From Pegea sp. RAD2-039 (taxonomy: Eukaryota; Chordata; Thaliacea; Salpida; Salpidae): 64,000 nt of DNA. Position 1 is the first letter of the stretch. The number at the start of each line of letters is the position of its first letter. Below, one piece after another: positions 4,040 to 63,445 of this stretch. The position numbers and the translations under genes were made by a program. Below the pieces are notes generated by a model. The model saw only the letters and a list, made by a program, of their open reading frames with translations. It ran no database searches and was not told the DNA's origin. The stretch spans positions 806,001 through 870,000 of the forward strand of contig JAQGEQ010000084.1 of NCBI GenBank assembly GCA_034620365.1, given 5' to 3'.

Positions 4040-4400
4040 TCATCTGTGTGACGAAGCAGATACTATACCTACCAAGCGGGTGGTTCCGGGTTCGAGCCCA
4101 GGTGGACACATATTAGTGACAATGAAAGTTCATATAAAAAAACCCGGATAGAAGGGCCCTGTGAGCCTGGTAAAATGGCAACACTTCTAGGAGACTTAAA
4201 ACTACGAATTTTAAGCCGGAGTTGGAGCCCCGTAGGCAGTTCCCTCTACTCATTATCATTCTGGCAAATCCTGCGATGCCAGCTGCAGCTGAATCAGTTT
4301 GTCTGTACCGCTGCATAATTTGTTAGCGTGGAACCCTGCTGCATGGGCAACAACTGGATAAGTTCTGATCTGGCACATATATACGCATAACCGTTCGCGG
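4040..4400 (+). repeat. tRNA-derived SINE, family 1, copy A
   Basis: A GC-richer island of about 360 bp. Its head resembles a tRNA and includes a near-perfect pol III B box, GGTTCGAGCCC, near 4090. The body that follows is found again, inverted and diverged, at 63060-63445. Shared blocks include the GGAGTTGGAGCC motif, the CCGCTGCATAA block and the AAGTTC...CCCGG.TAGAAGG block. Presence of the same head and body at two unrelated places marks a SINE family with a long central domain. The open frame on its minus strand is a by-product. Confidence 0.7.
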
Positions 4401-5477: not shown

Positions 5478-6248
5478 TCAACATCTATTTCTTTTAACCT
5501 TCTTTTTTTCACATTTGATAACTTTCCGTCTTTTAGGGGCACATTTGTTAACTTTCCGTCTTTTAGGGGCACGTTTGTTAACTTTCCGTCTTTTAGAGGC
5601 ACGTTTGTTAACTTTCCGTCTTTTAGGGGCACATTTGCTAACTTTACGTTTCTTTATCGCTGATCTTTTTTTCTTGGAACTTTTTTGTGACTTTTCAAAG
5701 CAAACTTTGCGATTAAATTTCTTACCTTTAGTATAGGAAAGAAGTTTTCCTTTGGGGGTCATGAGATAAGTACCTCTGACAGAATGATACAGAAACCCTG
5801 ATCGAGTCATTCGTTTCAAAGCTAAACCCACCCCTTTAGTACAGCTTGACTTGGTCAAATACTTCTCTTTCGAAGCTATCCATTTAATGATAGCTTTTCG
5901 GCGAGCACCTTTCCCACCTCCAAGGGCGGCAATTGCTTCTTTGATTAGTATATCATAAGGTGGGAAGAGAGGGAAGATACCCGCCGAAGGAGAAATTATC
6001 ATGGGGCCATATTTTTCACAAGTTTTTTGCAATTGTTTTTGTTCTTCTTCATTGTAACCCATGTTACTGAGTGTTTTTTCAAGTTCTTTGGATTTAGTAG
6101 CTGATTCATAAATAATAGCTTTGGTATTTTTTCCCGAAGAATCTGAATCTGAGTCATCTTCTCTGTAAAATAATCCTACGCTAGGTTGAACCATCATTTT
6201 CATATACGAAATTAATCCTTCGTTTAAAGACTGCTCGAGTGACTCCAT
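5478..6248 (-). CDS. H1-like linker histone with Lys/Arg decapeptide repeats
   Basis: Intronless gene of 256 residues. I chose the ATG at 6248 because the longer open frame upstream lacks an ATG. Residues 1-90 form an acidic/polar N-terminal extension with a DSDSDSS patch. Residues about 95-170 form a linker-histone winged helix (PPYDILIKEAIAAL, then GARRKAIIKWI, a glycine-flanked third helix and SFLYHS/GTYLMTP-like wing). Residues about 197-246 are five 10-residue units of type KRRKVxKxAP, followed by a basic tail. Five cysteines lie in the tail or just before it. The role is likely nucleosome and linker DNA binding. The long N-terminus and Cys-containing repeats fit a variant or germline/sperm-type H1 better than a somatic H1, but that is inference. 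A perfect CRE (TGACGTCA) lies 125 bp upstream. Confidence 0.85.
   Translation of the reverse strand: MESLEQSLNEGLISYMKMMVQPSVGLFYREDDSDSDSSGKNTKAIIYESATKSKELEKTLSNMGYNEEEQKQLQKTCEKYGPMIISPSAGIFPLFPPYDILIKEAIAALGGGKGARRKAIIKWIASKEKYLTKSSCTKGVGLALKRMTRSGFLYHSVRGTYLMTPKGKLLSYTKGKKFNRKVCFEKSQKSSKKKRSAIKKRKVSKCAPKRRKVNKRASKRRKVNKRAPKRRKVNKCAPKRRKVIKCEKKKVKRNRC
5518..5662 (-). repeat. 30-bp coding minisatellite in the H1-like tail
   Basis: Nearly identical 30-bp units (core ACTTTCCGTCTTTTAGGGGC on the plus strand) in tandem, each encoding one KRRKVxKxAP decapeptide. The array also stays open in two plus-strand frames, which are shadows. The near identity of the units suggests recent expansion or homogenisation. 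Confidence 0.85.
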
Positions 6249-6372
6249 TTTCACAAAAACAGTTACGAACAAACATTGACAAAAATCGTTGGTTAGCTAT
6301 TTGGTGCTTATTTATAATTTTTTGTGGACCTCGTTGAAACTCTAAACATATGTTTGATCATTTTAGATTTTA

Positions 6373-6380: not shown

Positions 6381-6541
6381 TAATAATTCAGTTAATATGT
6401 TTATTTAACAAAATTTGCATATTTTGTACTTATTTTACCCTTCCGTTTTTGGTATTTCTACTTTGGGCAGCTACAACAATGCTGCCTGAGCTTCAGCTTC
6501 TTACATAACTTTGATTAATTTTTCAATTATAATTTTAACTA

Positions 6542-6735
6542 TGATTTAATTAAATTCGATTATTGGTATCTTTTATAAACAAGAAAAATATTTCAAAACT
6601 AAAATTCTTGCTTAAAGTAAACAAGGGAAATTCCCAATTTATTATAGATTTAAACATAGGTAAATATTTAGAAAAACTTGTTTTTCTGCTCTTATTTGTA
6701 CATTTAATATCTGGCAATGAACGTCATGATTTTTT
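6542..6735 (+). repeat. Truncated outer copy of the GNAT upstream segment
   Basis: Repeats the first part of 7400-7860. It shares diagnostic bases (GTAAACAAGGGAAATTCCC) with the outer right copy at 21640-22070, whereas the two inner copies share GTAGACAAGGGCAATTCCC. So there is an outer pair and an inner pair, and the outer pair belongs to the same inverted duplication. Confidence 0.8.
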
Positions 6736-7399
6736 GAATAATTTTTTCGTCATGAATCTGTTTAATTATATAATATTTTGTTATTTTAGAATTAATACCT
6801 ACAAAAAATAATTAAAAAGTCATATTTTAAATCATATTTAATGTTTTAAGTATAAATGATTATCGATTTTGCGAATGACAAACTCAGTAAAAACTTGAAA
6901 GTTTGCTAAAGATGCTTAAAAAGTATTATTTTTAGGTTTAAAAAATATTCTTAGAATAATTCGTAAATAAATATTAATAAAAATCTATACAAAATTTCAA
7001 ATTAAAAATTTATATAGAGTTCGTTTTTTCAAGTGGTTTCAAAATTTCCTTGTAAAGCTTTATAAAAACTTTTCAGGAAGTGTTCACTACAATTACAGCA
7101 GAGCAACTGCTAGAAGCAAGCCCACAGTGAAAAACTATACGAAAGCTAACAATTTTTTGTTTGTTTTGTTGGTTGAAAAGCCTTTTTATTTTTTATAGTT
7201 AGATAGTAGTATGGCTAGCTTCAGTTGTTAACGGCCATCGATACAAGATTTATCATTTTTTGTAACTCATCCAGAAATATCAGTAATTTCTAGTTAGTTA
7301 ATAAAATTTGTGTAATAATTTAAAGATTTTATTGATAAAAGATAATTATTTAAAAAAATACGGATAGTTGACTATAGGCAGTTACAAAACTCTCCGATT

Positions 7400-7860
7400 T
7401 AATTAAAATCGTTTATTGGTATCTTTTATAAACTAGAAAAATATTTCAAGACTAAAATTCTTGCTTAAAGTAGACAAGGGCAATTCCCAATTTATTATAG
7501 ATTTAAACATAGGTAAATACTTAGAAAAACTTGTTTTTCTGCTCATTTTTGTACATTTAATAACTGCCAATATACTGCCAATAAACGTCATTGATTTCTC
7601 ATTCAAAAGTTTGTTACACCTTTTCTGAAGTCAAGCTTTTTAAATTTATATTTTTATGTTTGTTATAAAAGCTGTAGAACTTATCATCGGCAAATATATT
7701 GGCAAAATATAATTATGTAAATGAGAAATAGTTATTTCTAATTAAAAAACCGAGATTATTTATAGGCTGTGTAGGATAAATGTTGTAACAAAGCGTGTAT
7801 GTATATTTTATTAATTCTATATTAATTACTTTTTTATAGGTGTTACTAACAAACTGAAAA
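7400..7860 (+). repeat. GNAT upstream segment, left inner copy
   Basis: About 460 bp directly before the GNAT gene, present four times in the window (also 6542-6735 truncated, 20340-20785 and 21640-22070 inverted). It ends in a pyrimidine-rich stretch and AG just upstream of the GNAT start, which could be a 5' UTR intron acceptor or a trans-splice acceptor. It differs by a few bases from the right copy. Confidence 0.8.
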
Positions 7861-7883
7861 CAAGCATAACAACAGGCATCATA

Positions 7884-8576
7884 ATGCCTTTTGATTCGAA
7901 AATTTTTCAACAAAGTTTTGGGATGCTGAAACACCGAGAAAAATTTTTGTTTAGGTTTTTAGCTTCAAAAGATTTCCGACAAGCCAACAAACTGGTTTCA
8001 ATGTTTTTGACTCAATCAAAAACTTCCAGAGGTTTTAACTTTCCACTTAAAGAAGCAGAAGTCATATCAAAGTGGTATTTAGACAACAATCTCTGCAATG
8101 GAATGTCATTTGGTTGTTTTGAACAAAGCACCAAAAACATGGCGGCTGTAATGCTTATTAGTCTAAAAAATTATGGTAGTGAGTATATACCAGCAAACTA
8201 TCCAAAAGAATATGCTATCAGATTAAGATTACAAAGTGCTGCAGAGAGCAACCTGATGTCAGGAAAACCAGCAGAACTTGGAAGGTATCTAAACTCACTT
8301 GTCGTTTCAGTACATCCCAAGTATTTTGGGCATGGGATAGTAGCTGAAATGATTAGTATTGGTTCAGAGATTGGTAGACCCTTAGGATGTTTGGAATTCG
8401 TAGCAACAATGTCTAGTGATAGCGCTTTAAAAGCAGTTTTAAAAAATGATGTTGTTATTCGAAATGTCATTGAACTTTCAGAGTATGTAGATAGCGAGCT
8501 TGGGATTAAACCTTATGAAGATGCTAAAGCTCCGAACGACAAATTTTATTTTGTTTCAAATAAAATTAAATATTAG
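7884..8576 (+). CDS. GNAT-family N-acetyltransferase, left copy
   Basis: Intronless, 230 residues. GNAT enzymes transfer acetyl from acetyl-CoA to an amine. Support is the acetyl-CoA loop: residues about 139-160 read as a beta strand (LVVSVHP), then KYFGHG (146-151), matching the R/Q-x-x-G-x-G/A motif with Lys in first place, then a helix. Its size and the LVVSVHP-type strand recall arylalkylamine/polyamine-like animal GNATs, but the substrate cannot be told. The N-terminal 60 residues are not distinctive. The ATG follows the repeated upstream segment. The protein is identical to that at 19606-20298, and the DNA stretches I compared are also identical. The minisatellite starts about 225 bp downstream. 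Confidence 0.75.
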   Translation: MPFDSKIFQQSFGMLKHREKFLFRFLASKDFRQANKLVSMFLTQSKTSRGFNFPLKEAEVISKWYLDNNLCNGMSFGCFEQSTKNMAAVMLISLKNYGSEYIPANYPKEYAIRLRLQSAAESNLMSGKPAELGRYLNSLVVSVHPKYFGHGIVAEMISIGSEIGRPLGCLEFVATMSSDSALKAVLKNDVVIRNVIELSEYVDSELGIKPYEDAKAPNDKFYFVSNKIKY

Positions 8577-8800
8577 TTTAAAATATCTTTCATTAACTTT
8601 CTATCATTTTGTTGAGCTTCATTGATTTAGTAATAAATTAATTGGTTAGTTTGCGATGCACATATAATATTTGTTCAAGTTTATGATATTGTTCATTTTT
8701 GAGTTTCGTTTACATGATCTATTAAAAACTCTCAATTTAAAAACAAACTTATCGATTTGGTAAAGTGTTTTCTGAATAGCTTAATGGACGAATTGCTTAT

Positions 8801-10206
8801 TTGCTACAGGTATTAATATTTGGTACAGGTGTTAATACTTGGTACAGGTTTTAATTTTTGGTATAAGTGTTAATATTTGGTACAAGTGTTAATATTTGGT
8901 ACAAGTGTTAATATTTGGTACAAGTTTTAATATTTGGTACAAGTGTTAATATTTGGTACAGGTGTTAATACTTGGTACAGGGTATTAATATTTGGTACAA
9001 GTTTTAATATTTGGTACAGGTATTAATATTTGGTACAGGTGTTAATATTTGGTACAAGTGTTAATATTTGGTACAGGTATTAATATTTGGTATAGGTATT
9101 AATATTTGGTACAGGGTATTAATATTTGGCACAAGTTTTAATATTTGGTACAAGTGTTAATATTTGGTACAGGTATTAATATTTGGTACAGGTGTTAATA
9201 TTTGGTACAAGTGTTAATATTTGGTACAGGTATTAATATTTGGTATAGGTATTAATATTTGGTACAGGGTATTAATATTTGGCACAAGTGTTAGTTTTTG
9301 GTACAGGTTTTAATATTTGGTATTGGTGTTAATATTTGGTATAGGTATTAATATTTGGTACAGGGTATTAATATTTGGCACAAGTTTTAATATTTGGTAC
9401 AGGTATTAATATTTGGTACAGGTGTTAATATTTGGTATAGGTATTAATATTTGGTACAGGTGTTAATATTTGGTACAGGGTATTAATATTTGGCACAAGT
9501 GTTAGTTTTTGGTACAGGTTTTAATATTTGGTATTGGTGTTAATACTTGGTACAGGTGTTAATATTTGGTATAGGTGTTAATATTTGGTACTGGTGTTAA
9601 TATTTGGTACAAGTTTTAATATTTGGTACAAGTGTTAATATTTGGTACAGGTATTAATATTTGGTACAGGTGTTAATATTTGGTACTGGTGTTAATATTT
9701 GGTACAAGTTTTAATATTTGGTACAAGTGTTAATATTTGGTACAAGTTTTAATTTTTGGTACAGGTTTTAATTTTTGGTACAGGTTTTAATATTTGGTAC
9801 AGGTATTAATATTTGGTACAGGTTTTAATTTTTGGTACAGGTTTTAATATTTGGTACAGGTATTAATATTTGGTACAGGTTTTAATTTTTGGTACTGGGT
9901 ATTAATATTTGGTACAGGTATTAATATTTGGTACAGGTTTTAATTTTTGGTACAGGTTTTAATATTTGGTACAGGTATTAATATTTGGTACAGGTTTTAA
10001 TTTTTGGTACAGGTTTTAATATTTGGTACAGGTATTAATATTTGGTACAGGTTTTAATTTTTGGTACAGGTTTTAATATTTGGTACAGGTATTAATATTT
10101 GGTACAGGTTTTAATTTTTGGTACTGGGTATTAATATTTGGTACAAGTGTTAATATTTGGTACAGGTGTTAATATTTGGTACATGTGTTAATTTTTGGTA
10201 CATGTA
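8801..10206 (+). repeat. 19-bp minisatellite, left array (about 74 units)
   Basis: Tandem array with unit TTAATATTTGGTACAGGTG, variants at the AGGTG/AAGTG/GGTAT end and TTTTT for TATTT, and some 20-bp units with an extra G. It has the reverse-complement partner at 17267-19386. The first and last few units match the partner in variant order; the middle differs in length and order. No coding potential. Confidence 0.95.
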
Positions 10207-10950
10207 TTGTTCATCGGCATTCAATCAATTTTTGTTTCTAATGATTTTAACAATCGAGTCTGATTCGGCTGAGAACGGCCAACTGAACACAAATTTTGAT
10301 TTTAGTCTTTTCTAGAATAGCAATTGATGGTTGATATCGTCTATATTGTCCAGTTTTGCTAAAAGATAGCAATAATACTTGACTTTGACATCGTCAAGAT
10401 TCTACCTGGGCGACATCTAAATAGGGTTATTTGGTCCAGGGCAGTGAAACGACCTGTTTCTAAACTATTTGTGCAGAATTGAGATATTTATTGTTTAAGT
10501 AGCCTGCGCTCAATCTAATCTCATCTAACTATGGAGTTTTCTCTTATTTAAATAGAATCCACTTAAAATCGATAAGAAATTAAATTGTTAAAATAAAAAC
10601 CAGTAAATATTTAAAAAAAAAGAAGGAAAGTAAATATTAACAATTAATCGATATTTATACTAAATAGTAATGATGCATTCAAAACAGCAATAAAATTAGC
10701 TTATTGAAGAAGCAGGGCGATACTAAATTGGACAAACTATCTTAATCAATTCAACTATCTTATTTTGTAAAGAGTTTTTTTCGAGAGGATTGATAAGTAA
10801 TCTTGTAATTTAATACAAGACTATAATTGATAAACAAAGTTCACTATCTGAATAAACAAAATTTTATTTACTTATAAACCAAATAAAATCAATTTCAAAA
10901 GATTTATTATTTTTCTAAAGTTTTGCTAATCTTTAAAGCAAAACTCAACT
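10207..10950. other. Arm sequence between minisatellite and tRNA
   Basis: Non-coding sequence repeated in the right arm at 16525-17266. I see no gene. Confidence 0.6.
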
Positions 10951-11022
10951 GCCTCCAGAGAGAATCGAACTCTCGACCCCTGGTTTACAAGACCAGTGCT
11001 CTAACCCCTGAGCTATGGAGGC
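10951..11022 (-). tRNA. tRNA-Thr (TGT), left arm
   Basis: 72-nt cloverleaf: 7-bp acceptor GCCTCCA/TGGAGGC, D arm GCTC..GAGC, anticodon stem CTGGT/ACCAG around loop CTTGTAA (anticodon TGT), T arm GAGAG/CTCTC with TTCGATT. No intron. A TTTT pol III terminator follows about 9 nt after the 3' end. The body is identical to the copies at 14633 and 16453. Confidence 0.97.
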
Positions 11023-11289
11023 TGATATTCTTGTTGATTACATTATAACAAATTTTGTGGAAGTCAGTTTGTTGTTATTTTGTCAAGTGCTTTCTTTTGT
11101 CAAATTCAGTAACTTCAAAATCAGTTTGTATAAAATCGTGGATTGAAAAATTTCAAGAAATTTTGTAGTAAATTAAAGAATTTTATAATTATATTTTGAT
11201 CTAAAAGCCACTATTGAAACGTAAAAACAAATCGCGGAAAGTTGTACTTGGAAATTTAAATGAGGTAATTAATTAGAAGTTTTATATTA

Positions 11290-11460
11290 AAATCACTCAG
11301 ATCGGATCTTCTCCCTCCAGCTCTCATTATAGAAAGATAGAACAGTCATCATGATGTAAGATCAAAAGATCCTCCATCAACCTTCCTGCTCAGAAGGAGA
11401 TCCCAATCCTCATCATCGTGATTGGTCTGCCGCCATGATTAAATGACGTAGTCAAGATAC
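11290..11460 (+). repeat. GC-richer repeat element E, left-arm copy
   Basis: A GC-richer stretch starting CACTCAGATCG, recurring inverted at 16025-16185 and, diverged, at 12700-12895 in the same orientation. It is surrounded by very AT-rich DNA. It could be a short transposable element or a structured RNA; no terminal repeats or coding frame are clear. Confidence 0.5.
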
Positions 11461-12699
11461 ATCCTTTAGAAATGATCCCTAAAAGTATGATCTTAGTTTA
11501 AAGCTGAATACGACGGAATATAATTAAAAACATAAGTTTAAGGTTTGTGGGTACTGGTGACGTCAAAAAGCGAGACTGAACATAAAAAAAAAAAGTTTTC
11601 TTTTGAAGATTCGTTTCACAGTTTTAAGATGTTTTTATATTTATTAGAAATAGAAACTTACAAAATCCCTAGAATACTTGAAAACATGTGATTAGTTTTT
11701 ATCGTTTTATTTTTTCACTTCAGTTGTTACCCAAAGTTTGATTTTGAACATTATGCTTTTCAAAGAATTTAAAAGTTCAAAAATTATTTCGTTGCAGAAA
11801 TCTTTTTGGATTAAATTCAAGGAAAACTTAGTTTGACTACAATATATTAATAAATAAACTATTTCAATTTATTCTAAAATAACTGTATGGAAATAACGTT
11901 TACAAAAACTGTAGTAAAGTTTTTATTGAATTGATTACAGATCTGAACTGTTGCAGTTGGAAATAGTTTACAAATCCTACATCAATGTCGAGTAGTAAAC
12001 TTGCTACAGCGAGTACCCGGCAATAAAATGTTTTAAATACCTTTCCTGTTTTTATCTCACCTGTAATGATGTATTTTAAGCAATAGAATTCAAAATGTTG
12101 TTTTTTGTACAAACTTTTTCATACTAAATGGTATTCGTTTAGTGCCCCAACTACTTTGTTAAATCCAGAAGCATTTTGATATGATCTAATTCATATCTTA
12201 ACTATATATTCTTTTTTTGTCATTAAGTTAATAAAATTACTGAACTCAATTCAAGCAGTAACTCAATTATGATTTCTTCACACAAAAAAAGAGCATCGCA
12301 ATTCTGTTCTTTGATGTCCGCTAAATATTCGTTAAAAATAGCAAGGTTGATCAAATGAATTTTCCAATTTTTATTAAAAATAAAAGATAGTTAAAAAATT
12401 GAAGAAATTAGTTTTGAGGATTTCCTGAATAAAGTCATAATTTCTAATCAAATATACCTTTACTGGAGGAATATAACCTTTTTTACCTACTATTAACAGT
12501 AGTAGGGGAATTCTTACCATTACCACCTCAAAATCTTTCTTTGAGAAAAGTTTTTCAGCCTAAACTTTTCATACGACAATTTTTGTAAATTTTCATTACA
12601 TAATTCATTCATGAAATACAAATGGCTTTGGCTAACTACATGTGAAAGATTCGTTTGATGCAAATCGCAGTCATTTGATGTCAGCTAGATTTCGTAGAG

Positions 12700-12895
12700 T
12701 ACTCACTCAGATCGAATCACCTCCCCTACAATCTTTCTGCTTTCGAAAGAATGTGCGACTATCGTCACAACGATTGATGCATTTGATCGATCGTCATAAG
12801 TTTAGAGACAGATTGATTCATTTGTAATCAATCTTGATGCCAAGGGGAGATGTCGAGACATCATCACCGCGAGTACGTGTCCGCCCTGATCAGGA
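12700..12895 (+). repeat. GC-richer repeat element E, diverged spacer copy
   Basis: Begins CACTCAGATCG like the arm copies and keeps matching blocks (GGAGAT...CATCATC.CCG, GTCCGCCCTGAT against GTCTGCCGCCATGAT), but is clearly more diverged than the arms are from each other. The short open frame across it is not a gene. Confidence 0.45.
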
Positions 12896-14189
12896 GCTGA
12901 CTGAGATTAACTCTTTAAATTAATTAGAGAGGTTATCCAGATCGAAAGTGAAATTAATCACTTTATCTGATCAGTTAAGTCTAGTGTTTGTGGGTTAAAG
13001 TTATGGTAATGTTTAAAGTTAAAAGGCAACATTTCAAATAACGATACAAACTGAAAACTAGATCAGATTGCCATACAAAAGTTTACGAAATACGATTCTG
13101 TTAGCGTAGAAAAAGATTCTAAATCATTTAAAACGAAGATCTGATTTGTTTTCGAGAAAGAAAACCTTAGATTGCTATTTGAGCAGTTAACTTCTTATAA
13201 AATGCTTGTCAAAATAATTGTAACTAATTAAAGTAATTGTTAAATGTTTTCTGTAAAAGTTTTAATATAGCTTCGCTTTAAAGCAGATTTTCTTTGAACA
13301 CTTTAAAGATAACAAACTTAAAAATAGACAAAGTCTTATAAACAATTCATATCAAATATTTATAAGTTCCTCTGCTGTTCTACAGAATTAAATGTTTTCA
13401 AAATGATTGAGTAATAAAAGTTATTTTAAATAACTTGCTGCATCAATAAGCTTCTGCATTTATCATGATGGCCTCTTAGGGTTTTAATAACTAAAAAAAT
13501 AAAAAGTTTAAACTCGAGATAAAATTCTCTTAGTAGAAAGTCTCTTAGTGTCTGATTTGGAAATTTTCATCTATAAATGTTAGGCTTGATGTTATTCTGG
13601 GTCAGCTTCCAGGGCAAACTCTAGCTCAATATTTTCTTTCCTCACCTACTACTCTTTCAACTGAGTTTCCCGTCTATCTCGTATGTACCTCAAAGAGTCA
13701 GTTTTTATAATATGAGACAAGTTTTGGGATTATTGCCAAGTATATCGATTTGAAATGATGGATTATTGATTTAATAACTAATAAATTTTAACTAATTTTA
13801 AATAATTATTCTTGTAGCTTGAAATTTTGAAGAATTACAGAATTTCCTTCAAGATTTTTATTGAAAAAAAATAAAATCAGATTCACTTTGGAAGTAATTT
13901 AGAATTGCAGTTGTAAGTTGATGCAGTTTTGTAAGTTTGAATATTTACCAAGTTTGATAAACTACCAATGAATAAAAAATAATCTTTAATTTAGAAATTT
14001 CACTTTGTTCTTTCATCGTATCATCATTGTCGCTAGATGGCGTAAACAGCCTAAATACTAAACTTAATCTTTTTTTAAACTCTGTAAACTTTATGCATGC
14101 GCACAAATTCTTATTATAACATTTGTTTACAGTGTTATTCGGTAATTCGACTTTTTAGATCCGCTGTTTAGTGACAAGCTAGTGGCACT

Positions 14190-14345
14190 ATTTACCATTA
14201 ATTGGGATAGATACTTTTCGCGATCACCAGATGACGCTTTTATCGTGTAGAGTATGTCAGATCTTTGAAGATGAGGTGGGATTTGAACACATGCGTACAA
14301 TGCACAATAATTTAGCGGCCAATCGATTTAATCTTAACACAATTT
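14190..14345 (-). repeat. tRNA-derived SINE, family 2, copy A
   Basis: On the minus strand it reads as a degenerate tRNA head with B box GTTCAAATCCC, followed by a body with GCGTCA...GCGAAAA...ATCCC. Head and body both align with 24636-24800 (plus strand), including the shared AAGAT.AAA start. It does not fold as a good tRNA, so it is a SINE rather than a tRNA gene. Confidence 0.6.
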
Positions 14346-14465
14346 ATAAGGTAGCTTTAAATTCATTTACAATAGTTTTAACCCCATCGTAGTATTTAGT
14401 CTGCAAAGAAAAAGCAAAATTGTTTTACAGATTTGATTAATCTAGTTAAATTAAGGCAAAATATA

Positions 14466-14723
14466 ATCATAAAATTCTTTAATTTACTAAAAAATTTCTT
14501 GAAACTTTTCAATCCACGATTTTGTACAAACTGATTTTGAAGTTACTGAATTTGACAAAAGAAAGCACTTGACAAAATAACAACAAACTGGCTTCCCCAA
14601 AATTTATTATAATGTAATCAACAAGAATATCAGCCTCCATAGCTCAGGGGTTAGAGCACTGGTCTTGTAAACCAGGGGTCGAGAGTTCGATTCTCTCTGG
14701 AGGCAGTTGAGTTTTGCTTTAAA
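14466..14723 (+). repeat. Third copy of the tRNA-Thr segment
   Basis: Matches right-arm 16285-16545, including about 165 bp upstream of the tRNA, then stops abruptly about 19 bp after it. It has the right-arm orientation and a few point differences (for example GGCTTCCCC against TGACTTCACC). Confidence 0.85.
14633..14704 (+). tRNA. tRNA-Thr (TGT), spacer copy
   Basis: Same 72-nt cloverleaf and TGT anticodon as the two arm copies, with an intact acceptor, all stems and a downstream TTTT. The body is identical although the flanks have drifted, consistent with a working gene. Confidence 0.97.
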
Positions 14724-15300
14724 CATAAATAAAATGATAGTTAATTTCCAAAAAGTTCAAGAAATAAGCGGCATTCATAGGAAATTCATTTTTAAGTAGT
14801 TTGATAAATCAATGTTTTAAACAAAAATTCAGTCAACACCTGATAGAGACCGGTTGATAGCATTATAATTTCCACGATAAAAATTCCGTTTGCTTGAAGT
14901 TTTAACGTTCATGGAAAAAGTTCGATGGAGCTTGAATTCCATCATGTTGTGATCGCATATCGGAGCAAAAGGTTGTTTTTCATCAACTTAGATAATGTTC
15001 TCAGGTTTTGATGTGCCAAGAAGATCCAAAGTATTGCCACTAAATTGGGTTGGAAAAGTAACCATCTGAGATAAGTTGTTGGCATCAAGGAAGCTTACAA
15101 AGGCATGACTTGAAATGGATGAATTAGGATTGTGGCTGTCTAAGTTTTTACTTTCATGGAAGATTTGTCGTGTAACCTAACCAAAAAATGTTGAATCGAT
15201 TTCTTATCCAGATAGAATAATTTATCACAATTAATATACAAATCACTACTAAAAATAATTTTATTACAAACACTATTCAATATAATATAACCTGAAAACC

Positions 15301-15757
15301 TTATTCAAATAGAATTAACTGATTTATCATCCACAATCTTACAACTATTACTACTGTTGTTCTTTCTATTATTACTAAACGGGTTTGTTCAAACCAATTA
15401 TCGAAAAAGTTAAAAACTGAAAATGCTGAAGAAGACCAAGAAGAAATTCTGAATAAAAATGATTCTTCAAAAGATGTAGATTTGTTTGAGATATAAATTT
15501 GTGAAAATATAAATTCTATTATTACACTTTCATCAAATTCAGAAAGTTTTGATTTTAATTTTGTACAATTATTGAGGAAATAAATTGAATTGATTCTGTT
15601 ATTTTTCAGTGAATCAGTTTTTATGTTAAACTCTTCCTCGTCACCATTTTCCTTGAATTTAATCCAAAAAGATTTCTGCAACGAAATAATTTTTGAACTT
15701 TTAAATTCTTTGAAAAGCATAATGTTCAAAATCAAACTTTGGATAACAACTGAAGTG
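15301..15757 (-). CDS. Hypothetical open frame at the inner edge of the right arm
   Basis: An open frame of about 150 codons, rich in Ser, Ile and Phe, following a good acceptor-like TTTTTTCACTTCAG at about 15758. It is not recognised and has no clear domain. Its first 30 codons lie inside the duplicated arm. The left arm copy (about 11743-11826) breaks just there and runs into a stop, so the left copy is truncated. It could be an exon of an unknown gene or a chance frame in AT-rich DNA. Confidence 0.25.
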
Positions 15758-16024
15758 AAAAAATAAAACGATAAAAACTAATCACACGTTTTCAATCATT
15801 CTAGCGATTTTGTAAGTTTCTATTTCTAATAAATATAAAAACATCTTAAAACTGTGAAACGAATCTTCAAAAGAAAACTTCTTTTTTTTTTATGTTCAGT
15901 CTCGCTTTTTGACGTCACCAGTACCCACAAACCTTAAACTTATGTTTTTAAATATATTCCGTCGTATTCAGCTATAAACTAAGATCATACTTTTAGGGAT
16001 CATTTCTAAAGGATGTATCTTGAC

Positions 16025-16185
16025 TACGTCATTTAATCATGGCGGTAGACCAATCACGATGATGAGGATTGGGATCTCCTTCTGAGCAGGAAGGTTGATA
16101 GAGGATCTTTTGATCTTACATCATGATGACTGTTCTATCTTTCTATAATGAGAGCTGGAGGGAGAAGATCCGATCTGAGTGAATT
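16025..16185 (-). repeat. GC-richer repeat element E, right-arm copy
   Basis: Inverted partner of 11290-11460 with very few differences. Confidence 0.55.
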
Positions 16186-16452
16186 TGATATAAAACTTCT
16201 AATTAATTACCTCATTTAACTTTCGAAGTACAACTTTCCGCGATTTGTTTTTACGTTTCAATAGTGGCTTTTAGATCAAAATAGAATTATAAAATTCTTT
16301 AATTTACTACAAAATTTCTTGAAATTTTTCAATCCACGATTTTGTACAAACCGATTTTGAAGTTACTGAATTTGACAAAAGAAAGCACTTGACAAAATAA
16401 CAACAAACTGACTTCACCAAAATTTGTTATAATGTAATCAACAAGAATATCA

Positions 16453-16524
16453 GCCTCCATAGCTCAGGGGTTAGAGCACTGGTCTTGTAAACCAGGGGTC
16501 GAGAGTTCGATTCTCTCTGGAGGC
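16453..16524 (+). tRNA. tRNA-Thr (TGT), right arm
   Basis: Identical 72-nt tRNA body to 10951-11022 (inverted) and 14633-14704, intronless, anticodon TGT, TTTT terminator downstream. Confidence 0.97.
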
Positions 16525-17266
16525 AGTTGAGTTTTGCTTTAAAGATTAGCAAAACTTTAGAAAAATAATAAATCTTTTGAAATTGATTTTATTTGGTTTA
16601 TAAGTAAATAAAATTTTGTTTATTCAGATAGTGAACTTTGTTTATCAATCTCGTCTTGTATTAAATTACAAGATTACTTATCAATCCTCTCGAAAAAAAC
16701 TCTTTACAAAATAAGATAGTTGAATTGATTAAGATAGTTTGTCCAATTTAGTATCGCCCTGCTTCTTCAATAAGCTAATTTTATTGCTGTTTTGAATGCA
16801 TCATTACTATTTAGTATAAATATCGATTAATTGTTAATATTTACTTTCCTTCTTTTTTTTTAAATATTTACTGGTTTTTATTTTAACAATTTAATTTCTT
16901 ATCGATTTTAAGTGGATTCTATTTAAATAAGAGAAAACTCCATAGTTAGATGAGATTAGATTGAGCGCAGGCTACTTAAACAATAAATATCTCAATTCTG
17001 CACAAATAGTTTAGAAACAGGTCGTTTCACTGCCCTGGACCAAATAACCCTATTTAGATGTCGCCCAGGTAGAATCTTGACGATGTCAAAGTCAAGTATT
17101 ATTGCTATCTTTTAGCAAAACTGGACAATATAGACGATATCAACCATCAATTGCTATTCTAGAAAAGACTAAAATCAAAATTTGTGTTCAGTTGGCCGTT
17201 CTCAGCCGAATCAGACTCGATTGTTAAAATCATTAGAAACAAAAATTGATTGAATGCCGATGAACA

Positions 17267-19386
17267 ATACATGTACCAAAAATTAACACATGTACCAAAT
17301 ATTAACACCTGTACCAAATATTAACACTTGTACCAAATATTAATACCCAGTACCAAAAATTAAAACCTGTACCAAATATTAATACCTGTACCAAATATTA
17401 AAACCTGTACCAAAAATTAAAACCTGTACCAAATATTAATACCTGTACCAAATATTAAAACCTGTACCAAAAATTAAAACCTGTACCAAAAATTAAAACT
17501 TGTACCAAATATTAACACTTGTACCAAATATTAAAACTTGTACCAAATATTAACACCAGTACCAAATATTAACACCTGTACCAAATATTAATACCTGTAC
17601 CAAATATTAACACTTGTACCAAATATTAAAACTTGTACCAAATATTAACACCAGTACCAAATATTAACACCTATACCAAATATTAACACCTGTACCAAGT
17701 ATTAACACCAATACCAAATATTAAAACCTGTACCAAAAACTAACACTTGTGCCAAATATTAATACCCTGTACCAAATATTAACACCTGTACCAAATATTA
17801 ATACCTATACCAAATATTAACACCTGTACCAAATATTAATACCTGTACCAAATATTAAAACTTGTGCCAAATATTAATACCCTGTACCAAATATTAATAC
17901 CTATACCAAATATTAACACCAATACCAAATATTAAAACCTGTACCAAAAACTAACACTTGTGCCAAATATTAATACCCTGTACCAAATATTAACACCTGT
18001 ACCAAATATTAACACCTATACCAAATATTAACACCTATACCAAATATTAATACCTATACCAAATATTAAAACTTGTACCAAATATTAACACCTGTACCAA
18101 ATATTAACACCTATACCAAATATTAACACCTATACCAAATATTAACACTTGTACCAAGTATTAACACCTGTACCAAGTATTAACACCTGTACCAAGTATT
18201 AACACCAATACCAAATATTAAAACCTGTACCAAATATTAACACCTGTACCAAATATTAACACTTGTACCAAATATTAACACCTGTACCAAATATTAACAC
18301 CTATACCAAATATTAACACCTGTACCAAGTATTAACACCAGTACCAAATATTAACACCTGTACCAAATATTAACACCAGTACCAAATATTAACACCTATA
18401 CCAAATATTAACACCTGTACCAAATATTAACACCTGTACCAAATATTAACACCTATACCAAATATTAACACCTGTACCAAGTATTAACACCAGTACCAAA
18501 TATTAACACCTGTACCAAATATTAACACCAGTACCAAATATTAACACCTATACCAAATATTAACACCTGTACCAAGTATTAACACCAATACCAAATATTA
18601 AAACCTGTACCAAAAACTAACACTTGTGCCAAATATTAATACCCTGTACCAAATATTAACACCTGTACCAAATATTAATACCTGTACCAAATATTAAAAC
18701 TTGTGCCAAATATTAATACCCTATACCAAATATTAACACCTGTACCAAATATTAATACCTGTACCAAATATTAACACCTATACCAAATATTAACACCTGT
18801 ACCAAGTATTAACACCAGTACCAAATATTAACACCTATACCAAATATTAACACCTATACCAAATATTAACACCAATACCAAATATTAAAACCTGTACCAA
18901 AAACTAACACTTGTGCCAAATATTAATACCCTGTACCAAATATTAACACTTGTACCAAATATTAAAACTTGTGCCAAATATTAATACCCTGTACCAAATA
19001 TTAATACCTATACCAAATATTAATACCTGTACCAAATATTAACACTTGTACCAAATATTAACACCTGTACCAAATATTAATACCTGTACCAAATATTAAC
19101 ACTTGTACCAAATATTAAAACTTGTGCCAAATATTAATACCCTGTACCAAATATTAATACCTATACCAAATATTAATACCTGTACCAAATATTAACACCT
19201 ATACCAAATATTAACACTTGTACCAAATATTAACACCTGTACCAAATATTAATACCTGTACCAAATATTAACACTTGTACCAAATATTAAAACACTTGTA
19301 CCAAATATTAACACTTTATACCAAAAATTAAAACCTGTACCAAGTATTAACACCTGTACCAAATATTAATACCTGTAGCAAATAAG
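17267..19386 (-). repeat. 19-bp minisatellite, right array (about 111 units)
   Basis: Plus strand reads as tandem ACCAAATATTAACACCTGT-type units, the reverse complement of the left array. It is about 713 bp longer. Local multi-unit blocks recur (for example the ACCTATACC / ACCTGTACCAAGT / ACCAGTACC order), indicating expansion by blocks. Both ends match the left array in variant order. Confidence 0.95.
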
Positions 19387-19605
19387 CAATTCGTCCATTA
19401 AGCTATTCAGAAAACACTTTACCAAATCGATAAGTTTGTTTTTAAATTGAGAGTTTTTAATAGATCATGTAAACGAAACTCAAAAATGAACAATATCATA
19501 AACTTGAACAAATATTATATGTGCATCGCAAACTAACCAATTAATTTATTACTAAATCAATGAAGCTCAACAAAATGATAGAAAGTTAATGAAAGATATT
19601 TTAAA

Positions 19606-20298
19606 CTAATATTTAATTTTATTTGAAACAAAATAAAATTTGTCGTTCGGAGCTTTAGCATCTTCATAAGGTTTAATCCCAAGCTCGCTATCTACATACT
19701 CTGAAAGTTCAATGACATTTCGAATAACAACATCATTTTTTAAAACTGCTTTTAAAGCGCTATCACTAGACATTGTTGCTACGAATTCCAAACATCCTAA
19801 GGGTCTACCAATCTCTGAACCAATACTAATCATTTCAGCTACTATCCCATGCCCAAAATACTTGGGATGTACTGAAACGACAAGTGAGTTTAGATACCTT
19901 CCAAGTTCTGCTGGTTTTCCTGACATCAGGTTGCTCTCTGCAGCACTTTGTAATCTTAATCTGATAGCATATTCTTTTGGATAGTTTGCTGGTATATACT
20001 CACTACCATAATTTTTTAGACTAATAAGCATTACAGCCGCCATGTTTTTGGTGCTTTGTTCAAAACAACCAAATGACATTCCATTGCAGAGATTGTTGTC
20101 TAAATACCACTTTGATATGACTTCTGCTTCTTTAAGTGGAAAGTTAAAACCTCTGGAAGTTTTTGATTGAGTCAAAAACATTGAAACCAGTTTGTTGGCT
20201 TGTCGGAAATCTTTTGAAGCTAAAAACCTAAACAAAAATTTTTCTCGGTGTTTCAGCATCCCAAAACTTTGTTGAAAAATTTTCGAATCAAAAGGCAT
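19606..20298 (-). CDS. GNAT-family N-acetyltransferase, right copy
   Basis: The 230-residue product is identical to the left copy at 7884-8576, with the same KYFGHG acetyl-CoA loop at residues 146-151. It is transcribed toward the spacer, as is the left gene, so the two genes converge. Both copies appear intact. It shares with its partner the repeated upstream segment ending in an acceptor-like AG before the ATG. Confidence 0.75.
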   Translation of the reverse strand: MPFDSKIFQQSFGMLKHREKFLFRFLASKDFRQANKLVSMFLTQSKTSRGFNFPLKEAEVISKWYLDNNLCNGMSFGCFEQSTKNMAAVMLISLKNYGSEYIPANYPKEYAIRLRLQSAAESNLMSGKPAELGRYLNSLVVSVHPKYFGHGIVAEMISIGSEIGRPLGCLEFVATMSSDSALKAVLKNDVVIRNVIELSEYVDSELGIKPYEDAKAPNDKFYFVSNKIKY

Positions 20299-20339
20299 TA
20301 TGATGCCTGTTGTTATGCTTGTTTTCAGTTTGTTAGTAA

Positions 20340-20785
20340 CACCTATAAAAAAGTAATTAATATAGAATTAATAAAATATACATACACGCTTTGTTACAAC
20401 ATTTATCCTACACAGCCTATAAATAATCTCTGTTTTTTAATTAGAAATAACTATTTCTCATTTACATAATTCTATTTTGCCAATATATTTGCCGATGATA
20501 AGTTCTACAGCTTTTATAACAAACATAAAAATATAAATTTAAAAAGCTTGACTTCAGAAAAGGTGTAACAAACTTTTGAATGAGAAATCAATGACGTTTA
20601 TTGGCAGTATATTGGCAGTTATTAAATGTACAAAAATGAGCAGAAAACAAGTTTTTCTAAATATTTACCTATGTTTAAATCTATAATAAATTGGGAATTG
20701 CCCTTGTCTACTTTAAGCAAGAATTTTAGTTTTGAAATATTTTTCTAGTTTATAAAAGATACCAATAAACGAATTTAATTAAATC
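20340..20785 (-). repeat. GNAT upstream segment, right inner copy
   Basis: Inverted partner of 7400-7860 with scattered substitutions (for example CAGAG for CCGAG, TAGAATT for TATAATT). Confidence 0.8.
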
Positions 20786-21639
20786 GGAGAGTTTTGTAAC
20801 TGCCTATAGTCAACTATCCGTATTTTTTTAAATAATTATCTTTTATCACTAAAAATCTTTAAATTATTACACAAATTTTATTAACTGACTAGAAATTACT
20901 GATATTTCTGGATGAGTTACAAAAAATGATAAATCTTGTATCGATGGCCGTTAACAACTGAAGCTAGCCATACTACTATCTAACTATAAAAAATAAAAAG
21001 GCTTTTCAACCAACAAAACAAACAAAAAATTTGTTAGCTTTCGTATAGTTTTTCACTGTGGGCTTGCTTCTGGCAGTTGCTCTGCTGTAACTGTAGTGAA
21101 CACTTCCTGAAAAATTTTTATAAAGCTTTACAAGGAAATTTTGAAACCACTTAAAAAAACGAACTCTATATAAATTTTTAATTTGAAATTTTGTATAGAT
21201 TTTTATTAATATTTATTTACGAATTATTCTAAGAATATGTTTTAAACCTAAAAATAATACTTTTTAAGCATCTTTAGCAAACTTTCAAGTTTTTATTGAG
21301 TTTGTCATTCGCAAAATTAATAATCATTTATACTTAAAACATTAAATATGATTTAAAATATGATTTCTTAATTATTTTTTGTAGGTATTAATTCTAAAAT
21401 AACAAAATATTATATAAATAAACAGATTCAAAACGAAAAAATTATTAAATTGTGTGAAAGTATGAGAAAAACTTTAAAAACAGGTTCAAGCTAATTTTTA
21501 TCTAGTAAATAACTTTTTACTGGTATTAAGCAAGTTAAGATAATGTTTGATGTAAAACTTTAAAAGTTTAAATTCGACTATAAGAATATAAATTTCTCTT
21601 TAAGATTGAAAAATCAATCAAAATTATGTAGGAAGTTTC

Positions 21640-22070
21640 TTAGCTACACCTGTAAAAAAGTAATTAATATAGAAATAATAAAATATACATACACGCTTTG
21701 TTACAACATTTATCCTACAAAGCTTATAAATAATCTCTGTTTTTTAATTAGAAATAACTATTTCTCATTTACATAATTCTATTTTGCCAATATATTTGCC
21801 GATGATAAGTTCTACAGCTTTTATAACAAACATAAAAATATGAATTTAAAAAGCTTGACTTCAGAAAAGGTGTAACAAACTTTTGAATGAGAAATCAATG
21901 ACGTTTATTGGCAGTATATTGGCAGTTATTAAATGTACAAAAATGAACAGAAAAACAAGTTTTTCTAAATATTTACCTATGTTTAAATCTATAATAAATT
22001 GGGAATTTCCCTTGTTTACTTTAAGCAAGAATTTAGTTTTGAAATATTTTTCTAGTTTATAAAAGATACA
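21640..22070 (-). repeat. GNAT upstream segment, right outer copy without a GNAT gene
   Basis: A nearly complete copy of the upstream segment, including its pyrimidine-AG end, but followed by unrelated sequence with no acetyltransferase. It pairs with the truncated copy at 6542-6735. It suggests a former extra GNAT copy that was lost, or an upstream segment duplicated by itself. Confidence 0.75.
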
Positions 22071-22076
22071 ATTGTA

Positions 22077-24480
22077 TTGTTTGTTGTTGATATGGACTCA
22101 ATAAAGAAATATGCCAACGCAGCTTTCACCTGTAGTGTATACTTAGATAACATCAATGATAAGAAATTATCAGGAATAAAGGGCATGCACTGTAAAGCAT
22201 TGAGTCATTTCAAATGCTGCACGACAAAAGAAGTATCTGTTCTTCTGTCTAAAGTAAATAATGTCAAGAAGAGGTCATTGGTTTCTTTCTGTCTTCTCAA
22301 ATGCTTGTGTAAAAACTGTAAAGTTCTCATTAAACCAAGTGAAAGTAGTTCTCTTTTGGCAAGTACTAAGATACACGATGAAATTAAGAACCTGATTGAA
22401 AGGAAATGAACAAGTTAATCAGTTTTCTTTAATGGAGAACAGCTTAAGAGCAGTATCCTCTAACATTACAACAACTATGAAATTCCAAGCTGAATTTACT
22501 GCAAAAAAGGGAATATTTCAACGTATGTATCTTCAGCATCCCGAGTCTAAAACAGATGATCCAATTCTCAATACTCAATTCTCAATAGATTTTCAAACTT
22601 TCTTAAGCTCGGTGGAGGACAGAGTTCCTCTGACAAAAGATGACGTCAAGACGTTTTACTGAGTCGGTTCAACATCTTCTAACAACAGACCAATTATCAA
22701 GAAGCTCTCTAATCAATCAACTAAAAATAAACTACTTAAACTCTGAAACCTCATCATCAACTGCCGTGACCAAACTAACCGTGGGTACATACATCCAGAC
22801 CGAACTAAAAAGCAGCAAGAGCTTCACAAGAGACTGGTAAGAGAGCTGCGTCAAAAACGAGAGGCTACCAAGGTGAGTAAGAGCGGTGATAAATTTGTTA
22901 TTATCAATGATTCGGTTGTCAAGCTTTCTCTTCAGCTAAATTTTCCTTCCTTTTTTTACCACCTGCGAGCATTTAGTTATCTCTTTTCAAGTTCATTTTA
23001 AACCATCTATAAATCCTCTCAATAGTGATAGAACTTTTATAGAACTAACTTCAAAAGATTAACATCTATCTGTTCTCGTCTAAATAAAGAGCTATTTTTA
23101 CGATAACTTCATACAAGTTCTGAATAATTCTATTCAAATGTTTGTCCCACTAAAAGCTCCCTCCCATCCCAATGGCACAAAACTTCACCACATATTAAAC
23201 GTTTATTAACTGGAAAGCATCTCTTATACAAAAAACTCTAGCAAACTACAAGCTCAAGTTTAAGGAATATAAAATTGAAGTTGTTAAGTGGTATGACTAT
23301 AAGGAAAGTAAAATTTGTGACAGCGGCTCTTCACTTAAATCCTATAAATCTATTAAACCAAAATTAAACTTCAGATCATCAATACCACTTCTTGATAAAA
23401 ATTAAAAGTTTTATCTCAGTGATCTTAAAAAGGCTGAACTTTTTAATCTTTGCTTTCAGAAGGTCTTCACAAAAGACAACGATTATAAAAACATTATTCT
23501 TAAAGCAAAAAGATCTAATCTTATGAATGACTTTTTTATCACTGAATTTGACATCTTCACTACCCTCCACAACATCAACGACAAATCAACTTGTACATCT
23601 GAAAATTACCTTTATACTTTAATTGAGAGATCTATCTATTCTATAGAAAACCTGTGTTTCATGCCTTTAATATCTTATTCTCCTCCAGCACTTTTCCAAT
23701 GAAAGAGGTCTTTATTATCTCAGTCCATAAAAAAAGCAACAGAAGTAATTCACTACGCCGTCAACCAATTTCTCTCAGTATTAGCTCGAGTCGATCTTTC
23801 AAATTGATTTGTTCATACAAAATTCAAATTCATCTTCTCCACAATAACTTACTCTCTGATGGTCAATTTGGATTCCTTCCTCAAAGATCCTCCAGTGATC
23901 AGCTGTTGTTTTGGCTTCACCACTGGCTATATTCAACAACCAACATCATCTATACAGACATTCACAAAATCTTTGACTCATATTCGCATCGCATATTAGT
24001 AAAAACTCTCAGATAGCTTGATACTTACCTCACTCTTGTCTTTTGGATAGAGCAATTTCCTAACTATAGACAACAGCAAGTCATTATTTACAACTGTCTT
24101 TCAATATCTATATCAATGACAGATCAGACTGTTCTACATCACTAAATTGTTCTGGAAATTTAATGCTCTTTGCTAACAATGCCACACTTTTTAGTTCTTA
24201 TCAGTTGCTTTTCAATCTTATTTGGAGTTTACTAGCTTATGGCTTCAATCCAGACAGCTCAAACTCTCTGTTGATGCATAATTCAGCTAAAACGAAACCT
24301 ATAAACTGACCAAAGGTTTTTTATATCAAGTTTTCTATTCTATAGAAAATATGTGTCTTATGTCTTTAATTCTTAATTATCTTTCAGTTACACACCCTTA
24401 AAATGGAAGAGCTCCATCATTACTAGAAGCATTTTTCATCAGTGAATTTCTGACATTTTACATAAAAAGTTAAGACTTAT
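22077..24480 (+). mobile_element. Decayed non-LTR retrotransposon (LINE type A)
   Basis: Several broken frames in order. At about 22440-22960 an ORF1-like segment ends in the motif GYIHPDRT..Q..H.RLV.ELR..RE, close to the RPDLT..Q...LR.EL.RRR motif seen in ORF1 of animal CR1/L2-like LINEs. At about 23210-23640 is the linker before the reverse transcriptase. At about 23650-24016 reverse transcriptase pieces follow (IPxHKK-like VHKKSNRS, QFGFLPQRS, a degraded D-K-FDS motif). Stops and frameshifts are many. A short internal repeat of 23630-23700 occurs near 24330-24400. The endonuclease is not recognisable. Not functional. A related fragment is at 41490-42420. Confidence 0.75.
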
Positions 24481-28339: not shown

Positions 28340-30062
28340 AAGCTTAAGGTGAGATCTCAATTACCTCCCTTACTTGATAACAGCGACCAGCTTTTGATGA
28401 AACCAGAAAATAAAGCTGAAATGCTAAACAATCAGTTTAATAGCGTTTTTATAACCGATGATAGCAATACTCCTTCTCTCTCCTACTCCGACATTCTTTC
28501 AAATGTCTCTGCAGATCTTGACATAACGGTCGATATGGTATTTAAGGCCATTTCTTCTTTAAAATCATCAGTTTCCAACACCCCAGATCAGATCCCAGCT
28601 TTGTTTTTAAGAAAAACTACTTCCTCTTTATCACTATCTTTATCGCTACTTTTTAACATGACTCTGATCTGAGGAAGAATTCTTCAAATTTGGAAGTAAA
28701 CTATTATTACTCCAATTCATAAAAAGGGTCCTAGAAACACCGCACTTAACTACAGACCAGTTTTGCTGACTTCAGTTATCTGTAGAACTCAAGAACATAT
28801 CATTCACAATCATATGACCAGTCATTTGGTGGAGCACCATCTAATACCTGATGTCCAGCATGGCTTTGTGAAACGGAGATCTTCCCTGACTCAATATCTC
28901 ACTTTTCTTAATGAGCTTACAGCCCATTACGAAAGTAACACTCCCTGTGACATCATATACCTCGATTTTGCTAAAGCGTTTGATTCTGTCTCACACACTA
29001 AATTCTTTACTGCATTAAAATACTTAAAAATCAACAGCTTTATCTTACAGTGGTTTGAAAATTACTTATCAGGTAGAACCCAACAAACTAGTGTTAAAAG
29101 ATCTTTATCTACTCCTAGTCAAATCACCAGTGGTGTTCCTCAGGATTCTGTTCTGGTTCTCCTTCTCTTTTTAATTTTCATCAGAAGACTAGTAGCAGTA
29201 GATGATGTCAGAGTGTTTGTGTATGCAGATGATATCAAGCTATTATCTTATAATCCTCCAAAACTTCAAACTGCACTACACACTGTAGAAAACTGGTCTA
29301 CGAATTGGTAGTTCAGAATCCAACCCACAAAGTCTGTACTTATAACTTTTTCTCGTAAACCAGCTGTAAATTCCTTGAACCAATACTCCATCAATAGATT
29401 TATTATTCAACGAGTATCTTCGGTCATAGACCTTGGCATTACTCTATCATCTGACTTTAAATCACTCACTTTAACTGTTTCTAAAATCTTTGCAAAATCA
29501 ATCAACTTTGTCTTCCTTATTATAAAGATCTTTAATTCTAAGGATCAATACTTCTTTATCAATCTTTTCAAATTCTACTTACGTCCAATTCTTGAATACA
29601 ATGTTAGTGCATGGATGCCATATCAAGTTAGTGATATCAAAAAAATTGAGTCTGTTCAGGTCACATTTACGAAATTGGTATGCAGGAAACTTAATATTAA
29701 ATATGATAGTTTTAAACATCGTCTCAGCTTCTTAAATTTAGATACTTTGGAAATTCGACGAATTAAATACGACTTAATTCTTATTTTTAAAATTATCCAC
29801 AATTCAATTGAACTTCAGTTCGATGATTTCTTTTCCATTAGTCTTTTTCTCAAGTTATATCAACTCATTATATAATTAGTACATGGAACCAGCTGCCAAC
29901 AGACATTGTCATGTCAGAATCACTCATGTTGTTCAAGCAGAAGTTGAACCGTTATAATATTGCCAACATTGTCATTTCTAAACTGTGATTTTTTATTTTT
30001 TATTTAATATTATTATGATTATATGTAACTGTTTTAGGTCATCTGAAATCTATTATATAATG
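28340..30062 (+). mobile_element. 5'-truncated LINE type B with damaged reverse transcriptase
   Basis: Starts in the linker before the reverse transcriptase, so it is 5' truncated. Motifs in order: TPIHKKGPRN (frame change near 28675), QHGFVKRRS, YLDFAKAFDSVSH, SGVPQDSVL (usual SGVPQGSVL with Gly to Asp), the catalytic FVYADDIKL, then thumb and a C-terminal region ending in a LPTDIV..ESL.LFK-like motif in another frame. There are at least three stops or frameshifts (near 28670, 29309, 29875). The layout fits the CR1/Jockey-like group; the exact clade needs a tree. Not functional. Confidence 0.85.
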
Positions 30063-63059: not shown

Positions 63060-63445
63060 CATAACAACAATCATAAATGATTTGTAATAAATGGTCATGT
63101 TGTAAGCCAGGGCAGAAGTTATGTAAAACCAGCCTTTGACTATGTAGTAGGATTCCACTCTCCACGCCAACAAGGTTATGCAGCGGAACAGATGGATTGA
63201 TTCTGGCGTCACAGGAACTGTCAGAACCACACTGAATACACTGAAGAAGTACCTACGAGGCTCCAACTCCGATCTTAATTTTAGAGTTTCGTGTTCCTTA
63301 AAATTTTGTCATTACCAAACTAACAAGGTCCTTCTACCCGGGTTCTTATGAACTTTACCTTGTCGCAAATATGTGTCAGTCAAGCTCGAAAACTTCCGTG
63401 TGTTAGGTGGGCGTGATGACAGCTATAGTACAGAGACGGACAGTG
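63060..63445 (-). repeat. tRNA-derived SINE, family 1, copy B
   Basis: Minus-strand partner of 4040-4400. The head reads TATAGCTGTCATCACGCCC...TTTTCGAGC (B-box-like), followed by ACACATATT, AAAGTTCATA, CCCGGGTAGAAGG, GGAGTTGGAGCCTCGTAGG, CCGCTGCATAA and CATAACTTCTG...CTGG blocks in the same order as copy A. The 116-codon minus-strand open frame at 62916-63266 runs through the SINE and is not considered a gene. Confidence 0.7.

Follow-up and report, generated by a model that had tools for sequence, protein, structure and literature searches.

When two mirror-image copies of a chromosomal segment are identical in the middle and differ on either side of it, what has made the middle alike? The question is raised by a 64,000-nucleotide stretch of the genome of the salp Pegea sp. 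RAD2-039 (GCA_034620365.1; 105.7 Mb in 387 contigs), hereafter the window, which covers positions 806,001 to 870,000 of contig JAQGEQ010000084.1 (C11:806001-870000, where C11 denotes that contig). An earlier reading of the letters, here called the original prediction, had described a very large inverted duplication carrying an enzyme gene, a transfer RNA (tRNA) gene and a minisatellite. We consider it probable, judging from comparisons within the assembly, that an inverted segmental duplication was followed by recent gene conversion between its arms and then by block changes in the arrays that they carry. Self-BLAST of the whole window, with minisatellites masked, together with unit counting and a column-by-column arm comparison, gives the following layout:

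6566-11826, plus strand: left arm, with a core at 6734-11826 and a less certain outer extension at 6566-6718
15647-22069, minus strand: right arm, with a core at 15647-21449 and a less certain extension to 22069
11827-15646, no strand: spacer, 3820 bp, with a repeat fragment and one copy, 278 bp long, of the tRNA cassette
8798-10202, no strand: 19-bp minisatellite of the left arm, 74 units (copy number 73.6)
17272-19384, no strand: 19-bp minisatellite of the right arm, 111 units (copy number 110.6)
7752-10821, no strand: candidate recent conversion tract, left side, from clean unique columns and exact array blocks
16653-20430, no strand: candidate recent conversion tract, right side, delimited by the differing columns 16652 and 20431

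The two arms lie on the same contig as reverse complements, and the predicted inverted duplication is upheld by alignments of the masked core at 98.8% identity (6734-8797 versus the reverse complement of 21449-19385) and 98.6% identity (10209-11826 versus that of 17265-15647). The spacer, expected at about 3.8 kb, is of that length, and the coordinate sums given as constant come to 28182 (8797+19385) and 27474 (10209+17265), where the second, placed "inside" the minisatellite, refers to the spacer side of the array; "very large", on the other hand, is too strong a label for arms of 5-6 kb. Within 264 kb of the contig (C11:606001-870000, arrays masked) the only repeat pairs that exceed 1 kb and reach at least 95% identity are the two arm segments, and 34 of the 56 pairs of at least 200 bp in the same region are inverted, at least four of those 34 coming from the arm locus.

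Divergence between the arms is unevenly spread. They differ in 48 of 3686 unique aligned columns, none of which falls within 7752-10821, where the clean unique columns lie on either side of the array (7752-8797 and 10209-10821), and outside this tract the difference is 1.8-4.1% per segment with its peak at the outer end. The longest clean run takes in 1659 of the 3686 columns, a length reached in none of 20000 shuffles (mean 334, maximum 939), and the identical tract is longer than chance would give at the flanking divergence, non-coding DNA included. Arm-to-arm gene conversion, which had been merely suggested, is thus supported by 0 differences in 1659 columns between flanks that differ by 1.8-4.1%.

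The minisatellites are copies of each other. An exact block of 194 bp is shared by left 9058-9251 and right 19198-19005 and one of 665 bp by left 9252-9916 and right 17993-17329, while both array edges are spanned by exact blocks, one of 166 and one of 155 bp. These shared blocks suggest that the array lay inside the homogenised tract and that its later changes were chiefly gains or losses of blocks, two of which are confined to one arm:

17994-19004, no strand: block of 1011 bp in the right array only, whose neighbours are contiguous in the left array at 9251/9252
9917-10145, no strand: block of 229 bp in the left array only, from the exact-block comparison

The anticipated difference of about 37 units between the arrays agrees with the counts of 74 and 111.

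The sequence of events that we favour would begin with the duplication in inverted orientation of a chromosomal stretch of ~5-6 kb, with its GNAT-like gene, minisatellite, tRNA-Thr gene and U3 small nucleolar RNA (snoRNA) gene, the inverted copy arising by template switching, perhaps at replication forks stalled near tRNA genes. The arms would then have drifted ~2-4% apart before sequence from one of them replaced that of the other over a ~3-kb tract at their centre, through non-reciprocal homologous recombination, erasing the substitutions there, and the minisatellite within the tract would afterwards have gained or lost blocks of units. Conversion would be the process at work, presumably in a single event rather than several.

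An assembly artefact, in the form of haplotypes joined head to head, a folded-back read or cross-polishing of the middle of the arms, would be an unlikely source of this pattern. Short reads are hardest to place in the centre of the arms, which is where the identity lies, and for the identical tract alone cross-polishing is possible. However, the sequence left of 6543 has no match in mirror position right of 22069 in the whole-window self-comparison, and the only match between the flanks (4105-4332 with 63161-63377; 71% over 234 columns) is out of register, so that at the level of the assembly both a fold-back and head-to-head haplotypes are disfavoured. A fold-back would moreover not yield the 48 differing columns or the differences in outer edge and arrays, an argument already made in the original prediction that is borne out here and strengthened by the unmatched outer flanks, and the cassette of tRNA-Thr and U3 snoRNA genes described below is present as another inverted pair elsewhere on the contig. 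Rather improbable is a re-copying of the middle by break-induced replication or double crossover, possibly accompanied by spacer inversion of the kind seen in the Saccharomyces flip/flop regions. In yeast, inverted repeats whose arms are homogenised are known to flip (PMC9731477), and the outer edges of the present arms are complex; nevertheless, the data here do not separate these routes from conversion, and in the covered part of a study of human palindrome P6, 83 phased chromosomes gave 56 conversions versus 3 inversions (PMC3723533). Conversion tracts in P6 have a mean minimum length of 2068 bp in the same source, and we count it in favour of conversion that the tract here is of the size reported for them.

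The tract also holds an open reading frame (ORF), present in both arms:

7884-8576, plus strand: GNAT-like ORF of the left arm, 230 amino acids, in a stop-to-stop frame at 7815-8576; family assignment weak
19606-20298, minus strand: GNAT-like ORF of the right arm, with the same sequence as the left copy, in a stop-to-stop frame at 19606-20367

The identity of the two copies includes synonymous sites. Two paralogues of the ORF are found among the matches listed, on contigs designated C4 and C142, with protein identities of 59 and 61%, and comparison with the window ORF gives nonsynonymous divergences (dN) of 0.26 and 0.25 versus synonymous divergences (dS) of 0.96 and 1.00, indicating a gene under constraint. 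Its product tentatively resembles an arylalkylamine N-acetyltransferase (GNAT) through a weak match to PDB 4fd7 (E-value (E) 0.03 for a single sequence and 0.086 for a profile of three rows). Pfam returned no family for any of the three paralogues at E up to 5, and a single-sequence structure model was unusable (mean predicted local distance difference test score 41.6). The enzyme gene of the original prediction therefore stands as an identical ORF in both arms, with its identity as an enzyme tentative given the weak GNAT matches. That a single inverted duplication had its middle kept identical by selection without conversion is highly improbable, even though the tract holds a constrained gene, because removal of the ORF stretch (7840-8576) leaves a clean run of 922 of 2949 columns, beyond the maximum of 695 in all 20000 shuffles, for which coding constraint cannot account, and because the synonymous sites are identical as well; selection alone is thus disfavoured by identity beyond the ORF.

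Further towards the spacer each arm carries the predicted tRNA gene, for tRNA-Thr, and a U3 snoRNA gene that had been overlooked, and the spacer adds a third tRNA:

10950-11022, minus strand: tRNA-Thr(TGT), left arm
16453-16525, plus strand: tRNA-Thr(TGT), right arm
14457-14734, plus strand: partial third cassette copy, within the spacer and including tRNA-Thr(TGT) at 14633-14705
11292-11494, minus strand: U3 snoRNA gene, left arm (Rfam model)
15981-16183, plus strand: U3 snoRNA gene, right arm (Rfam model)

The U3 genes score 125.4 and 121.2 bits versus an Rfam gathering score of 34 and match positions 1-219 of the 219 in the model; they share a strand with the tRNA gene, U3 first, with 269 bp between. 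A second inverted pair of this cassette lies ~0.38 Mb from the locus (C11:424960-425628 and 436717-437385, 97.3%) and a direct pair ~0.78 Mb from it (C11:1609541-1610914 and 1617333-1618704, 97.5%). A tree of the six cassettes, built on 654 columns outside the conversion tract, pairs the window arms with support of 100/97 and splits the two 1.61 Mb copies from the other four (100/100), with no resolved place for the two cassettes at 0.43 Mb. The row for the 437 kb copy opens with ~300 non-homologous bp, and its distances of 0.19-0.21 were set aside, the tree being confined to the homologous part. Across these six rows the arms are closer relatives than either is to a paralogue elsewhere, with four conflicting sites, and differ from each other in 1.6% of 940 columns of the cassette alignment. 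As a separate observation, the two U3 genes of the window have clustered changes in common within 30 bp 5' of the gene (11496-11524 and 15951-15979), which are absent from the other copies compared. Farther upstream of U3 all 7 copies have CCCACAAACNNTAAACT, and 6 of the 7 have TATGTTTTTA after it.

The inner edges of the arms have a polarity, which is read from one further stretch:

15340-15646, no strand: sequence past the inner edge of the right arm, with a homologue at C11:1600916-1601451

This homologue (81% over 565 columns) extends beyond the right inner edge, the point at which the left arm stops, and by this one outside locus the right inner edge is ancestral; the left copy, truncated at its inner edge, is probably derived. 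A 158-amino-acid open frame crosses the right inner edge (15301-15777, minus strand) and is similar in part to C11:1600871-1601116 (minus strand). It matched no Pfam family and is only possibly coding. The repeat fragment within the spacer (14819-15122) is 86% identical to C11:794695-794998.

The outer edge is less orderly. The extension of the right arm is mostly without counterpart at the left outer edge, such that ~468 bp on the right (21450-21917) stand opposite 15 bp on the left (6719-6733), and beyond this gap 6566-6718 and 22069-21918 align at 95.4% over 153 columns. A deletion of 460 bp, as originally proposed, fits the contrast of 468 with 15 bp; it is one possible, unproven reading of a complex edge. 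A short element recurs there:

6543-6718, plus strand: outer left copy of the short element (self-BLAST)

Each arm also contains it internally, at 7396-7571 and 20611-20785, and a longer copy at 21634-22069 includes it; this outer right copy resembles the inner right copy (97.0% over 437 columns) more closely than it does the outer left copy. In addition, ~40 bp around 6497-6540 align out of order. The pairing of the outermost 0.2-0.6 kb of the arms is consequently less clear than that of the core.

Several of these observations weigh against so simple a history as duplication, one conversion and array change. The extra copies of the short element, of 176-437 bp, and the disordered short stretches at the outer edge suggest a history with further steps. 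Within the arrays, left 8867-9057 and right 19315-19199 have no simple alignment. The cassette at 425 kb is not much farther from the left arm (2.8% of 940 columns) than the arms are from each other, and it differs from the right arm in 3.7% of 939 columns. Four cassette sites also conflict with the grouping of the arms. In two of them, 11123 and 11131, the left arm has the state of the 437 kb copy and the right arm that of the 425 kb and both 1.61 Mb copies; in the other two, 11255 and 11288, the right arm matches both 1.61 Mb copies and the left arm both 0.43 Mb copies. Exchange with other loci is therefore likely to have taken place too. All of the evidence, finally, comes from one genome assembly.

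Around the arms, an ORF with a linker-histone match (5478-6296, minus strand, E 3.4e-8) lies just outside the left arm and contains a 30-bp tandem repeat, from which a repetitive, lysine-rich tail results. The right flank contains a reverse transcriptase (28700-29308, RVT_1 E 2.5e-21) and a second reverse-transcriptase match below the Pfam cut-off (23627-24013, E 0.0062). An exon of a SEC11 signal peptidase has 7p2q as its best PDB chain (E 1.1e-23), and G+C content is 28%. The motif TGACGTCA occurs 46 times in the 20 kb of C11:420001-440000 versus 5 times in the 64 kb window, and one example, near C11:431650, lies in what we take to be a short apparent intron of a formin-like (DAAM-like) gene. 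A literature text search for this motif gave nothing relevant among the papers listed, judged by titles and abstract starts.

Literature searches, which were not aimed at one species, found analogues of the locus and, among the titles listed, none naming it, and we compare it here with the covered parts of three accounts. Palindrome P6 of the human Y chromosome shares arm-to-arm conversion with multi-kilobase tracts, although the arms of human Y palindromes are >99.9% similar, while here homogenisation is confined to the middle of much shorter arms (PMC3723533). Long inverted repeats in Caenorhabditis likewise combine mirrored paralogous genes and intergenic DNA in near-identical arms around a spacer, and homogenisation was inferred there too, but these were followed across three species rather than in one genome; two examples have intergenic arms of 124-160 bp and spacers of 126-414 bp, and the part of the account covered makes no mention of a minisatellite or a snoRNA gene (PMC1803023). 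The Saccharomyces flip/flop regions resemble the locus in having gene-bearing inverted repeats of ~4 kb with a tRNA gene, homogenised within strains, and differ in a 24-kb interior with 15 genes and a demonstrated inversion polymorphism, compared with a 3.8 kb spacer in one genome here (PMC9731477). The locus belongs to a known class, that of gene-bearing inverted repeats with homogenised arms.

An unlikely extension of the favoured history is that the tRNA-Thr/U3 cassette repeatedly seeds inverted duplications and that the minisatellite is the break site at which conversion starts. Cassette pairs on the contig are inverted at 0.42-0.44 and 0.81-0.83 Mb and direct at 1.61-1.62 Mb. The minisatellite as trigger is conjecture: the array lies between the ends of the tract, but a single tract cannot show cause. 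If true, the turnover of the array could be timed against substitution, in a tract bounded on both sides whose array has changed mainly by blocks. The locus leaves knowledge of inverted repeats unchanged. Its value lies in being small and natural and in allowing the order of duplication, conversion and minisatellite turnover to be read from a single sequence: the borders of the tract are readable and the arrays share exact blocks.

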